Assembly (NCBI GenBank): GCA_001874325.1
Contig: MPCW01000004.1
Location: 62,001-126,000 of the forward strand
Origin: Flavobacterium sp. MedPE-SWcel
GTDB lineage: Bacteria; Bacteroidota; Bacteroidia; Flavobacteriales; Flavobacteriaceae
DNA: 64,000 nt
Direction of reading: 5' to 3'
Shown here: positions 27,046 through 31,096 of the stretch, one piece after another
Position numbering within the stretch: position 1 is the stretch's first letter
Layout: every line of letters begins with the position of its first letter
Made by a program: the position numbers and the translations under genes
The notes under the pieces: model-generated
Databases searched by the model: none
The model's input: the letters and a program-made list of their open reading frames with translations, nothing else
What the model was told of the DNA's origin: nothing

Positions 27046-27134
27046 TCGTTAAAATACAACATAGTTTTAGGAAATATGATATTTTATAATCGTTCTATTT
27101 TGCCTAACTTGCAAGGCATATAAATGGTTATTGC

Positions 27135-27764
27135 ATGATAAGCACAAAGAACATTCATTTTTCTTACGGGAAAGGAACTAAGTTTGATTTCCCAGATATA
27201 ACGGCACAAGATGGTGATACGTTATTGATAACAGGAGGCTCAGGTAAAGGTAAAACAACTTTATTGCATCTTTTAGGTGGTTTGCTAAAACCACAATCAG
27301 GAGAAATACATATAGAGGATACTAATATAGCGACACTTTCAGATAAAAAGTTAGATCATTTTCGTGGTAAAAATATAGGTTTGGTTTTGCAACAATCTTA
27401 TTTTGTTGCATCACTTAATGTGCTAGAAAATGTAGCTTTAGCATCGTGGTTAGCTACAGGAAAACAAGCTACAGAAAAAGCAAAAGAATTGTTAGAGCAA
27501 TTGGGGCTTAAAGATCAATTACAAAAACTACCATCACAGTTAAGTATTGGTCAGCAGCAACGTGTGTCTATAGCACGTGCGCTTATAAATGAACCAAAAT
27601 TACTTTTGGCAGATGAACCTACATCGAGTTTAGATGATGAAAATGCAGTTATAGTAGCCGATATGCTTTCGGGTTTAGCAAAGCAGTATGGTACTGCACT
27701 AGTAATTGTAACACACGACCAGAGATTAAAAGAACGTTTTTCTAACCAAATTACTTTATCATGA
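27135..27764 (+). CDS. ABC transporter ATP-binding protein (LolD/MacB-like)
   Basis: GGSGKGKTTLLH Walker A; LSIGQQQRVSIARAL signature; LLADEPTSSLD. Confidence 0.93.
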   Translation: MISTKNIHFSYGKGTKFDFPDITAQDGDTLLITGGSGKGKTTLLHLLGGLLKPQSGEIHIEDTNIATLSDKKLDHFRGKNIGLVLQQSYFVASLNVLENVALASWLATGKQATEKAKELLEQLGLKDQLQKLPSQLSIGQQQRVSIARALINEPKLLLADEPTSSLDDENAVIVADMLSGLAKQYGTALVIVTHDQRLKERFSNQITLS

Positions 27765-29203
27765 TTACAAAAATAGCTTGGAGAAACATTTGGTTTAAAC
27801 CACTTAACACACTGCTTAGTATAATACTACTTACAGCAAGTGTTGCAATCATTACATTACTAATATTGCTGCAAGAGCAGTTCGAGAAAAAATTTAATAG
27901 CAATATAGATGGTATCGATCTAGTGTTAGGTGCACAAGGTAGTCCGTTACAATTAATATTATCATCGGTTTATCAAGTTGATGCTCCTACAGGAAATATA
28001 AGTTATACAGAAGCTAAGCAATGGATGGATCACCCATTTGTAGAAACAGCAATACCATTAGCATTTGGCGATAATTATAAAGGCTTTCGTATTGTGGGGA
28101 CTACTCCAGATTATTTAGAAAAATATAATGCTACAGTAGAAGAAGGAAAGGTATTCAATAAAAAATTTGAAGTAGTAGTAGGTAACGCAATAGCTGAAAA
28201 AATGCAGCTTAAAATAGGTGATACTTTTTTTGGAACTCACGGAGATAGTAAAGAAGGAGATGTACATGATAATCAAGCTTATACTATTGTAGGAATTGCT
28301 AGTAAAACAGATAAGGTTGTTGATAATCTTATATTATGTAACGTACAAAGTGTTTGGACAATGCATGACCATGAGGGACACGATCATGAAGGTCATGACC
28401 ATGGCGATGAAGCAGAAAGCCATGAAGGACACAATCACGAGGTGCATGATCATGAAGTAGCCGCAGCATCAACGGATAATCATGAAGGACATGATCATGG
28501 CGATGAAATAGAAAGTCATGAAGGACATAATCACGAAGATCATGAGGAAGCGATAACATCAGTAGATAATCATGAGGGGCACGAACACGAAGGCCATGAC
28601 CACGCAACAGAAGATACACACGATCATGAAGAAGAAGCTATTGTAAATTATGAGGGGAAAGAAATAACGGCTGTATTAGTAAAGATGAAAAATAAAATGG
28701 CTATTTTCTCTTGGCAACGTATGATACCTATGAATACTAAAATGCAAGCAGCATCACCAGGTTTAGAAATCAACCGTTTATTTTCATTATTTGGTATAGG
28801 TTTACAGGCTTTACAATATTTAGCTTATGGTATTATGTTAATTTCAGGAATTAGCATTTTTATAGCATTATTTAATACCTTAAAAGAAAGAAAGTACGAG
28901 TTCGCTTTACTACGTGTAAATGGAGCAAGTCGCCTTCAATTATTAATATTAGTACTTATAGAAAGTTTACTTTTGTGTATTACTGGTTTCTTGTTTGGAA
29001 CGATTGTTGGGAGAGTAGCATTAATGCTCATTTCAGGTTCATCAGAAGAAGAATTTAAAATGTCATTTAATCCATTCGAATTTGTTTGGGATAAAGAAGG
29101 GTATTTGTTCTTACTCACTATTTTTGTGGGTATTTTAGCAGCAGTAATACCAGCAGTAAAAGCATATAGTTTAAACATATCAAAAACACTCGCAAATGCG
29201 TAA
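27761..29203 (+). CDS. FtsX-type ABC transporter permease with His-rich extracytoplasmic insert
   Basis: N-terminal TM plus MacB_PCD-like region and C-terminal FtsX TMs; overlaps the ATPase stop by 4 bp; His/Asp/Glu repeat in the middle. Confidence 0.88.
   Translation: MITKIAWRNIWFKPLNTLLSIILLTASVAIITLLILLQEQFEKKFNSNIDGIDLVLGAQGSPLQLILSSVYQVDAPTGNISYTEAKQWMDHPFVETAIPLAFGDNYKGFRIVGTTPDYLEKYNATVEEGKVFNKKFEVVVGNAIAEKMQLKIGDTFFGTHGDSKEGDVHDNQAYTIVGIASKTDKVVDNLILCNVQSVWTMHDHEGHDHEGHDHGDEAESHEGHNHEVHDHEVAAASTDNHEGHDHGDEIESHEGHNHEDHEEAITSVDNHEGHEHEGHDHATEDTHDHEEEAIVNYEGKEITAVLVKMKNKMAIFSWQRMIPMNTKMQAASPGLEINRLFSLFGIGLQALQYLAYGIMLISGISIFIALFNTLKERKYEFALLRVNGASRLQLLILVLIESLLLCITGFLFGTIVGRVALMLISGSSEEEFKMSFNPFEFVWDKEGYLFLLTIFVGILAAVIPAVKAYSLNISKTLANA
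28361..28640 (+). repeat. His-rich (HEGHDH) coding repeat within the permease
   Basis: About 30-32-aa units (HEGHDHGDExESHEGHNHE...), roughly 25 His in about 92 residues. Confidence 0.9.
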
Positions 29204-29699
29204 AACAATATTTATATTATCTACAGTTATTATATCAGGATTTTTATTAATGTCAGTAGGTACACCGTCGTTAAATAAAGGACAGCTTTCTAATAAAGAT
29301 TTTTCAGAATATACTACGTTTTCAGATACACTTAGTTGGAAGTTATTAGGTAGAATAAAATATGAAAAAAAAGCCAGTAAAGACTATCCAGGAGGCATAA
29401 TGTACCCAATAATTAATGAAACGCTGAAAACAAAAAACAAGAAAGAAATTGTAATGAGCGGTTTTATTATCCCTATTGATAATAAAAACTATGCGTTAAG
29501 TAAAAATGTATTTGCATCATGCTTTTTTTGCGGCCAGGCAGGCCCTGAAACGGTTATGGGAATTAAGTTTGAAGATGAATCAATACGTCTTAAAACAGAT
29601 CAATATGTAACTTTAAAAGGGAACTTTCGTTATAACGATAGTGATGTTGACGATTGGGTTTACCATATAGAAAATGCAATTATTGTAAAAGGAGAATAA
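29196..29699 (+). CDS. DUF3299-like exported protein with CxxC motif
   Basis: 167 aa; signal peptide; 'MSGFIIPIDNKNYALSKNVFASCFFCGQAGPETVM'; overlaps the permease stop. Confidence 0.55.
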   Translation: MRKTIFILSTVIISGFLLMSVGTPSLNKGQLSNKDFSEYTTFSDTLSWKLLGRIKYEKKASKDYPGGIMYPIINETLKTKNKKEIVMSGFIIPIDNKNYALSKNVFASCFFCGQAGPETVMGIKFEDESIRLKTDQYVTLKGNFRYNDSDVDDWVYHIENAIIVKGE

Positions 29700-30389
29700 A
29701 TGCAATTAGTTAATAAAAAAGATGTTTTTTTTGATTTAGACCATACATTATGGGATTTCGAAAAAAACTCAGCGCTAGCTTTCGAAACAATATTACGTAA
29801 GCATAATGTAGCTGTTGATATTTCTGAATTTATAAAACAATATGTTCCTATAAATTTACAATACTGGAGGCTATATCGCGATGCTAAAATTACACAACAA
29901 GAACTTAGGTATGGTAGGTTAAAAGATGCCTTTGATATATTAGAGTTTGAAGTTGATGATAGTACTATAAATATCCTATCTGACGATTATATTAAATATT
30001 TACCTACATATAATCATTTGTATGATGGAGCTATTGAAGTGTTAGATTATTTAAAGCCAAAGTATAATTTACATATTATTACAAATGGTTTTCAGGGAGT
30101 GCAAGATGGAAAGCTTCAAAACTCAAATATTCATCATTATTTTGATACCGTAACTAATTCTGAATTAGCAGGGTGTAAAAAACCACATCCCGCTATTTTC
30201 GAGTATGCACTTAATAGCGCTAATGCTGAAAAACACACTAGTGTAATGATTGGAGATTGTATTGAAGCTGATGTTCAAGGCGCGATCGATTTTGGTCTAG
30301 AAGCAATATATTTTAATGAATTTAATAAAGAAGCCGATGCTTCTATCAAACAAGTAAATCACTTACTTGACCTTAAAAACTTACTATAA
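29700..30389 (+). CDS. YjjG-family noncanonical pyrimidine nucleotidase (HAD superfamily)
   Basis: FFDLDHTLWDFEKNS, ITNGFQGVQDGKL, KKPHPAIFEYAL, MIGDCIEADVQGA motifs. Confidence 0.92.
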   Translation: MQLVNKKDVFFDLDHTLWDFEKNSALAFETILRKHNVAVDISEFIKQYVPINLQYWRLYRDAKITQQELRYGRLKDAFDILEFEVDDSTINILSDDYIKYLPTYNHLYDGAIEVLDYLKPKYNLHIITNGFQGVQDGKLQNSNIHHYFDTVTNSELAGCKKPHPAIFEYALNSANAEKHTSVMIGDCIEADVQGAIDFGLEAIYFNEFNKEADASIKQVNHLLDLKNLL

Positions 30390-30394
30390 TTCTT

Positions 30395-31096
30395 ATGAAG
30401 AAAATTATACTACTACTTTGTTTCTCGCTAACAATATCTATGTTTTCACAAAGTATAGGTGACTATAAATACCTAGTTGTACCTGAAAGATTTGAATTTC
30501 AGAGTGAATCGGGAGAGTTTGATTTAAACGAATTGACTAAAAAAATGTTCGAGAGAGAAGGCTTTGTGGTGTTTTATAGTAAAGATCAAATGCCTCCTGA
30601 ATTAGCATTGGATAAATGTAAAGCAGCATATGTTGACTTGCATAGAGAATCAAACTTTACTAGAACAAGAATGACTATTACGATAACAGATTGTTGGGGT
30701 AGAGTTTTGTTTACTTCTGATGAAGGTGTTAGTAAGGCAAAAGAACATAAAAGAGCTGCTCATGAATCATTAAGAGAAGCATCACATTCATTGTATAAGA
30801 TGGAGGAAGCAACAGATGTTATACTAAGTGATAAAGAGATGGATCATGATCCGACATATGATAGCGATCCTAAGGATAAATCAATTCTTTATGCGTATAA
30901 AGTGAAAAATGGATACCAGTTGTCAAGTATTGATAGAGAAGTATCTTTAAGGATATATAAAACATCTCAATTGGACTTATACATAGCTGTAGGAGAGGAT
31001 AAAAGAGGTGTGCTTCTAAAAGATGATGATAATTGGTTCTTAGAATATTATAAAGACAAAGAGTTGATTATAGAGAAACTAAATATAAAATTTTAG
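30395..31096 (+). CDS. Hypothetical exported protein
   Basis: 233 aa with signal peptide MKKIILLLCFSLTISMFSQS; no recognised domain. Confidence 0.6.
   Translation: MKKIILLLCFSLTISMFSQSIGDYKYLVVPERFEFQSESGEFDLNELTKKMFEREGFVVFYSKDQMPPELALDKCKAAYVDLHRESNFTRTRMTITITDCWGRVLFTSDEGVSKAKEHKRAAHESLREASHSLYKMEEATDVILSDKEMDHDPTYDSDPKDKSILYAYKVKNGYQLSSIDREVSLRIYKTSQLDLYIAVGEDKRGVLLKDDDNWFLEYYKDKELIIEKLNIKF

Follow-up and report, generated by a model that had tools for sequence, protein, structure and literature searches.

Three overlapping genes at positions 27135–29699 of the DNA analysed here, a 64,000-nucleotide stretch of the genome of Flavobacterium sp. MedPE-SWcel (the window), encode an ABC ATPase, an FtsX-type permease with a His-rich insert and a small exported protein with a CFFC motif. 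This arrangement, noted in a preliminary description made from the sequence alone, is confirmed by our analysis, and the interpretation given there is partly supported. On balance, the trio probably represents the Bacteroidota form of the Zrg (PA4063–4066) module, acting as an ATP-driven membrane machine, of a kind little studied so far, that handles zinc in the periplasm. Judged from its sequence, it is a divergent Zrg-type module that lacks ZrgA and has its presumed metal buffer located in the permease.

The operon and its His-rich permease

All three open reading frames were found where the preliminary description had placed a LolD/MacB-like ATPase, an FtsX permease and an exported CFFC protein (Table 1). 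The ATPase retains intact motifs (Walker A GGSGKGKT, LSIGQQQR, LLLADEP and VTHD). Its stop codon, ending at 27764, shares an ATGA with the permease start (ATG at 27761), and the permease stop (29201–29203) overlaps the start of the CFFC gene (ATG at 29196). The trio is a Bacteroidota-wide operon: the permease is present in 67 of 393 evenly drawn Bacteroidota genomes (42 of 179 genera), over 580 stretches of the GTDB collection match it, and its occurrence within Flavobacterium is patchy. In our two locus sets, drawn (78 loci) and contig (80 loci), which share a few genomes, the ATPase gene lies beside the permease gene in 65 and 77 cases, respectively. The third gene encodes a CFFC protein in 46 of the drawn loci and a DUF3299 protein in 13. 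It may also be duplicated in tandem, as seen for CFFC genes in loci L107, L108, L113, L116 and L249 and for DUF3299 genes in L140 and L147. Five permease genes (L186, L192, L230, L234 and L056) have no ABC ATPase or third gene nearby; if these proteins work, their ATPase must be encoded elsewhere.

The permease has four predicted transmembrane (TM) helices and a single large periplasmic domain. Its AlphaFold2 model, based on a 68-sequence alignment (sequences from plasmid records were not used in building alignments for structure models), shows a confident MacB/LolC-like fold, for which Foldseek returned LolE and MacB as the best matches. Together with the ATPase, it displays the features that define type VII ABC systems, namely an FtsX domain, a periplasmic core domain, four TM helices and a nucleotide-binding domain. 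VGAKGSPLQL is a conserved permease motif. The likeness to the mechanotransmission systems MacB, LolCDE and FtsEX thus extends to the fold, the number of TM helices and the periplasmic core. In contrast to them, the window system has a conserved His/Asp set, a His-rich tail and a DUF3299-like partner, and its operon contains no MacA, TolC or lipoprotein-pathway gene.

The insert had been described as about 92 residues with about 25 His in HEGH-type units. We find 93 residues (200–292) with 25 His, 34 Asp/Glu and seven HEGH units; the remaining 387 permease residues contain just three His (H91, H160 and H169). Against a 2% background, such His enrichment has a binomial P of ~3e-21. Residues 216–286 mostly have pLDDT values below 50, and in the model the insert is a flexible tail rather than a discrete folded domain. 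It occurs at the matching position in nearly all Bacteroidota relatives, with a highly variable sequence and a length ranging from ~6 to >130 residues. At least three His are present in the insert region of 73 of the 78 drawn and 77 of the 80 contig loci (150 of 158 Bacteroidota permeases), so the insert is not special to the window locus. Its His count has a median of 10–12 and a maximum of 46, placing the window in the upper range. Homologues devoid of both the insert and a His-rich partner, which the preliminary description had named as a finding that would, if common, speak against it, are mostly not seen; exceptions are a few Bacteroidota members, such as L208 and L255, with almost no His in the insert region and no ZrgA, and the Deinococcota members, which have neither. 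Since some members carry almost none of it, a long insert is not essential to the family, in agreement with the finding that V. cholerae can grow without the His loop of its ZrgA (PMC9820375).

A different part of the permease is strongly conserved. Across a diverse set of 76 permeases (Bacteroidota, Proteobacteria and Deinococcota), the conserved residues are His160, His169, His202 and Asp104 (Table 1) as well as Asp188, invariant in 76 of 76. All five core residues are retained in members without an insert. Two further FtsX permeases of the window genome share Asp188 and have no His at positions 160, 169 and 202; the comparison covers these two and leaves out a third paralogue, L259. We infer that His160, His169 and His202, with Asp104 and/or Asp188, form a candidate metal site, which would thus lie elsewhere than in the variable insert.

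Table 1. Features of the three-gene operon and its surroundings (window positions)
Feature	Positions	Strand	Remarks
Weak palindrome match	27055..27069	+	3 mismatches; not above chance
ABC ATPase, LolD/FtsE/DevA-like	27135..27764	+	All motifs intact; Pfam ABC_tran
FtsX/MacB-fold permease, 480 residues	27761..29203	+	Pfam FtsX 9e-15, MacB_PCD 2e-11
Asp104 codon	28070..28072	+	Invariant, 76/76
His160 codon	28238..28240	+	Invariant, 76/76
His169 codon	28265..28267	+	73/76
His-rich insert, permease residues 200-292	28358..28636	+	25 His, HEGH units, predicted disordered
His202 codon, root of His-rich insert	28364..28366	+	Invariant, 76/76
Exported CFFC protein, 167 residues	29196..29699	+	Predicted OB-like fold; remote DUF3299 homologue
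CFFC motif codons	29520..29531	+	
HAD-family hydrolase	29700..30389	+	Begins on the base right after the CFFC stop

Kinship with DUF3299 and the Zrg module

As a single sequence, the CFFC protein had no match in Pfam, NCBIfam or PDB, and a 17-sequence CFFC profile gave chance-level PDB matches only. The Pfam model of DUF3299 (PF11736) matched nothing in the window genome and just one of the 17 CFFC relatives, at E 0.08. Comparison of a profile of 65 CFFC relatives with a profile of 18 DUF3299 proteins gave a probability of 99.2% (E 1.4e-19), and the DUF3299 profile matches PA4066 (4hsp) at 9e-35. The same structure is the best PDB match by Foldseek to the CFFC model (pLDDT 88), followed by OB-fold proteins. 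As the E value of this fold match is modest (4.5e-3), the profile comparison is the main evidence for kinship. The CFFC protein is a remote DUF3299 homologue, much as the preliminary description had surmised. Cys109 and Cys112, the sole Cys residues of the protein, are both invariant among relatives; no lipobox Cys is present. Cys109 aligns with a conserved DUF3299 Cys, and the second Cys is particular to the CFFC/CPFC branch, CPFC being the form found in alphaproteobacteria and Deinococcota. Weak DUF1980_C matches in 3 of the 17 CFFC relatives (best E 0.011; alignment A3) hint at a broader OB-fold clan.

The likeness drawn earlier to zrgABCDE of V. cholerae holds: the gene order is the same and the permeases are homologous. 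Starting from the window permease, tblastn reaches those of ZrgA-DUF3299 operons (E ~1e-17 to 1e-22) with all five signature residues aligned. ZrgABCDE of V. cholerae and V. parahaemolyticus likewise combines an ATPase, an FtsX/MacB-like permease and a DUF3299-type periplasmic protein in a single operon, and shares the zinc-regulon setting of many relatives of the window operon. The window operon differs in having no gene for ZrgA (DUF2796, now 'ZrgA' in Pfam) or ZrgD, in carrying its His-rich element within the permease, and in encoding CFFC where DUF3299 has a CIH-PPPP motif; moreover, no Zur box was found there. P. aeruginosa PA4063–PA4066 has the same gene types, with PA4066 being the nearest solved structure to the CFFC model. 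The same differences apply as for ZrgABCDE; in addition, PA4065 has been argued to export pyochelin-cobalt, and nothing in the window points that way.

ZrgA exceeded the cut-off in none of 248 Bacteroidota genomes, including the window genome (84% complete). ZrgA-bearing examples came from plasmid records only and were picked by eye for diversity. Their gene order is Fur-ZrgA-ATPase-permease-DUF3299 in Phaeobacter and ZrgA-ATPase-permease-DUF3299 in Aeromonas, Pseudooceanicola and Sulfitobacter, and all four permeases lack the His insert, having 1–3 His in that region. An Alisedimentitalea record shows ATPase-permease-DUF3299 without ZrgA, and here the permease has a His-rich insert at the equivalent place. 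Because the insert is absent alongside ZrgA and present in the ZrgA-less Alisedimentitalea, and ZrgA is absent from Bacteroidota, the two look like alternatives, judging from these few ZrgA-bearing examples. The preliminary description had proposed a His-rich module fused into the permease. What stands is that a His-rich element is found in the permease when ZrgA is missing; the folded domain of ZrgA is not fused, and only a disordered tail is shared in kind. A fused ZrgA was ruled out as the identity of the insert, which has no folded domain and is disordered in the model.

Zinc-type and alkaline phosphatase neighbourhoods

MerC, Fur-family, COG0523 or FolE genes lie within 3 kb in 24 of the 78 drawn loci, concentrated in the nearest 1.5 to 3 kb and becoming rarer with distance, and genes for DUF1826, HupE/UreJ and LCIB-type carbonic anhydrase also recur. 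COG0523, FolE and DUF1826 are members of known Zur-linked gene sets (PMC2770081). In L057, L075 and L127 an LCIB-type carbonic anhydrase gene adjoins the operon; L127 also has COG0523, DUF1826 and FolE, and L075 has COG0523 and DUF1826. A palindrome, TGCAAC-N3-GTTGCA (at most two mismatches), stands upstream of 23 of 153 ATPase genes compared with about one expected, is linked to zinc-type neighbours (Fisher P 1e-4, uncorrected for relatedness) and occurs near the start of 22 of 36 MerC and 11 of 26 Fur genes. It is likely a Zur box. Flavobacterium sp. 9AF has such a candidate box close to the operon. In the window genome, one palindrome separates a Fur-family gene from a divergently oriented FAD oxidoreductase gene (G000:C3:17829-17843, locus L267), and two in tandem precede a COG0523 GTPase gene (G000:C4:64002-64053, L265). 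At the window operon itself no Zur box was found, the best site being at chance level (Table 1). The survey of neighbourhoods and Zur boxes proposed in the preliminary description thus finds zinc-type neighbours and likely boxes in part of the relatives and neither at the operon that prompted it.

A second association involves alkaline phosphatase. Thirteen of 19 plasmid loci (L131, L134-L139, L142-L146 and L148), representing 12 genera of alphaproteobacteria and Deinococcota, have the gene order alkaline phosphatase-CPFC protein-ATPase-permease. The phosphatase belongs to PF00245 in the plasmid loci tested, and the CPFC proteins tested from these operons match no Pfam family. The CxxC protein, ATPase and permease are homologous to those of the window, with His160, His169 and His202 conserved; unlike in the window, the CxxC gene precedes the ATPase gene and the phosphatase gene is part of the operon. 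In Bacteroidota, alkaline phosphatase is encoded within 1.5 kb in 6 of the 78 drawn loci and in none beyond that distance, out to 6 kb; the window genome encodes a phosphatase of the same type elsewhere. We found no description of this link in the literature searched. The association hints that the system may deliver zinc to enzymes that the cell secretes.

Closer to the window, the HAD-family hydrolase gene that abuts the trio is possibly co-transcribed with it. This gene and one for a 233-residue exported protein without a Pfam match occupy 29700–31096, and the pair follows the trio only in Flavobacterium relatives; more generally, flanking HAD, unknown and rarA-like genes are common to these relatives. 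Upstream regions of Flavobacterium relatives (L184, L185, L187 and L048-L055) have in common TA-n-CTTGCAAC near the beginning of the ATPase gene, often with TTAAGAAA ~30 bases before it. The window counterpart is TAACTTGCAAGG. This shared element may be a promoter or operator.

Probable periplasmic zinc handling and its alternatives

Starting from the observed operon, homology, conserved residues, tail disorder and zinc-regulon and alkaline phosphatase neighbourhoods, we infer the following scheme, its choice of metal (zinc), subunit stoichiometry, geometry of the site, transfer direction and CFFC protein function included. A pair of permeases and a pair of ATPases would form a machine of the MacB/LolCDE fold, in which ATP-driven movement would act on the periplasmic domain and would open no channel for metal. 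That domain would bear the candidate zinc site composed of His160, His169 and His202 with Asp104 and/or Asp188. The flexible His/Asp/Glu-rich tail anchored at His202 may concentrate periplasmic zinc, the job of ZrgA loops in Proteobacteria, and the DUF3299-like CFFC protein may be the periplasmic partner that gives or takes metal or guards a thiol site. Scarce zinc would thereby be shuttled between this pool and its recipients, which could be a periplasmic binding protein or zinc-dependent enzymes, alkaline phosphatase among them. As that phosphatase is a zinc enzyme of the periplasm, and the type VII fold is not that of an importer, a periplasmic role in handling or loading zinc agrees with every context better than import by itself does.

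Several observations weigh against this reading. Zinc-type neighbours occur in no more than 24 of the 78 drawn loci, and the window operon has neither such a neighbour nor a significant Zur box, though boxes exist elsewhere in its genome. In a few loci the permease gene stands without a neighbouring ATPase gene or third gene, and the contrast between ZrgA and the insert is based on four ZrgA loci related by descent. Finally, the P. aeruginosa homologue has been assigned to pyochelin-cobalt export (PMC11481552).

In V. cholerae, ZrgABC is viewed as a zinc importer, and the preliminary description had likewise suggested acquisition (or handling) of zinc, or else of Cu or Ni. On the importer view, the His-rich insert would be a built-in substrate-binding protein, with the permease driving zinc into the cytoplasm. 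The poor growth of zrg mutants of V. cholerae and V. parahaemolyticus at scarce zinc (PMC9820375, PMC9817125) and the Zur-type neighbourhoods of relatives agree with import. However, the ZrgA His loop is dispensable, alkaline phosphatase operons point toward the periplasm, and inductively coupled plasma mass spectrometry of a PA4065 mutant revealed no relevant zinc difference (PMC11481552). The operon contains no gene for a substrate-binding protein, and its permease is of the FtsX rather than the ABC-3 type characteristic of ZnuABC (cluster A-I). With a MacB/LolC fold and a disputed function of the P. aeruginosa homologue, the uptake claim is not borne out, and we consider a true importer unlikely.

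Less probable still is export of a metallophore or metal complex by a MacB-type system, the function suggested for PA4064–4065 (with pyochelin-cobalt). The MacB-like fold and the P. aeruginosa mutant data speak for it (PMC11481552), but in the same study P. aeruginosa lacking PA4065 continued to export pyochelin. Neither a MacA-type adaptor nor a TolC-type channel is encoded within the operon or directly beside it (a partner elsewhere in the genome is possible), and the operon has no metallophore synthesis gene. What the family conserves is a set of metal-type ligands together with a DUF3299-like partner.

A LolCDE/FtsEX-type envelope ABC system unrelated to metals, its His-rich loop being a neutral low-complexity expansion, is very improbable: insert length does vary freely, down to near zero, and LolD is the best-scoring model for the ATPase, yet the position and His/Asp/Glu make-up of the insert are kept across phyla, the three His persist in members without it, the genome's own LolC/MacB paralogues lack them, and the zinc-gene and alkaline phosphatase neighbourhoods also speak against it. 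The equivalog scores give no match to the lipoprotein exporter that the preliminary description had named as a refutation, as both are far below the cut-offs (ATPase against LolD, 187 bits versus 308; permease against LolCE, 37 versus 362).

A broader proposal can be made only tentatively. The whole family, including Zrg, PA4063–4066, the Bacteroidota trio and the alkaline phosphatase operons, might be an ATP-driven periplasmic metal-loading machine that does not import zinc and instead passes it, by way of the His site and the DUF3299/CxxC partner, on to secreted enzymes that need zinc, such as alkaline phosphatase. We are aware of no system in bacteria that is dedicated to the ATP-driven loading of zinc into periplasmic enzymes.

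The function of Zrg/PA4063–4066 is disputed between zinc uptake in Vibrio and pyochelin-cobalt export in Pseudomonas. Our comparison yields a single family signature (His160, His169, His202, Asp104 and Asp188), ties the CxxC protein to DUF3299, shows the alternation of the His-rich element and ZrgA in the loci seen, and puts forward a candidate for the Zur box of Bacteroidota. With the same machine found in alkaline phosphatase operons of three phyla, the choice between import, export and periplasmic metal loading becomes addressable by point mutants and enzyme activity.
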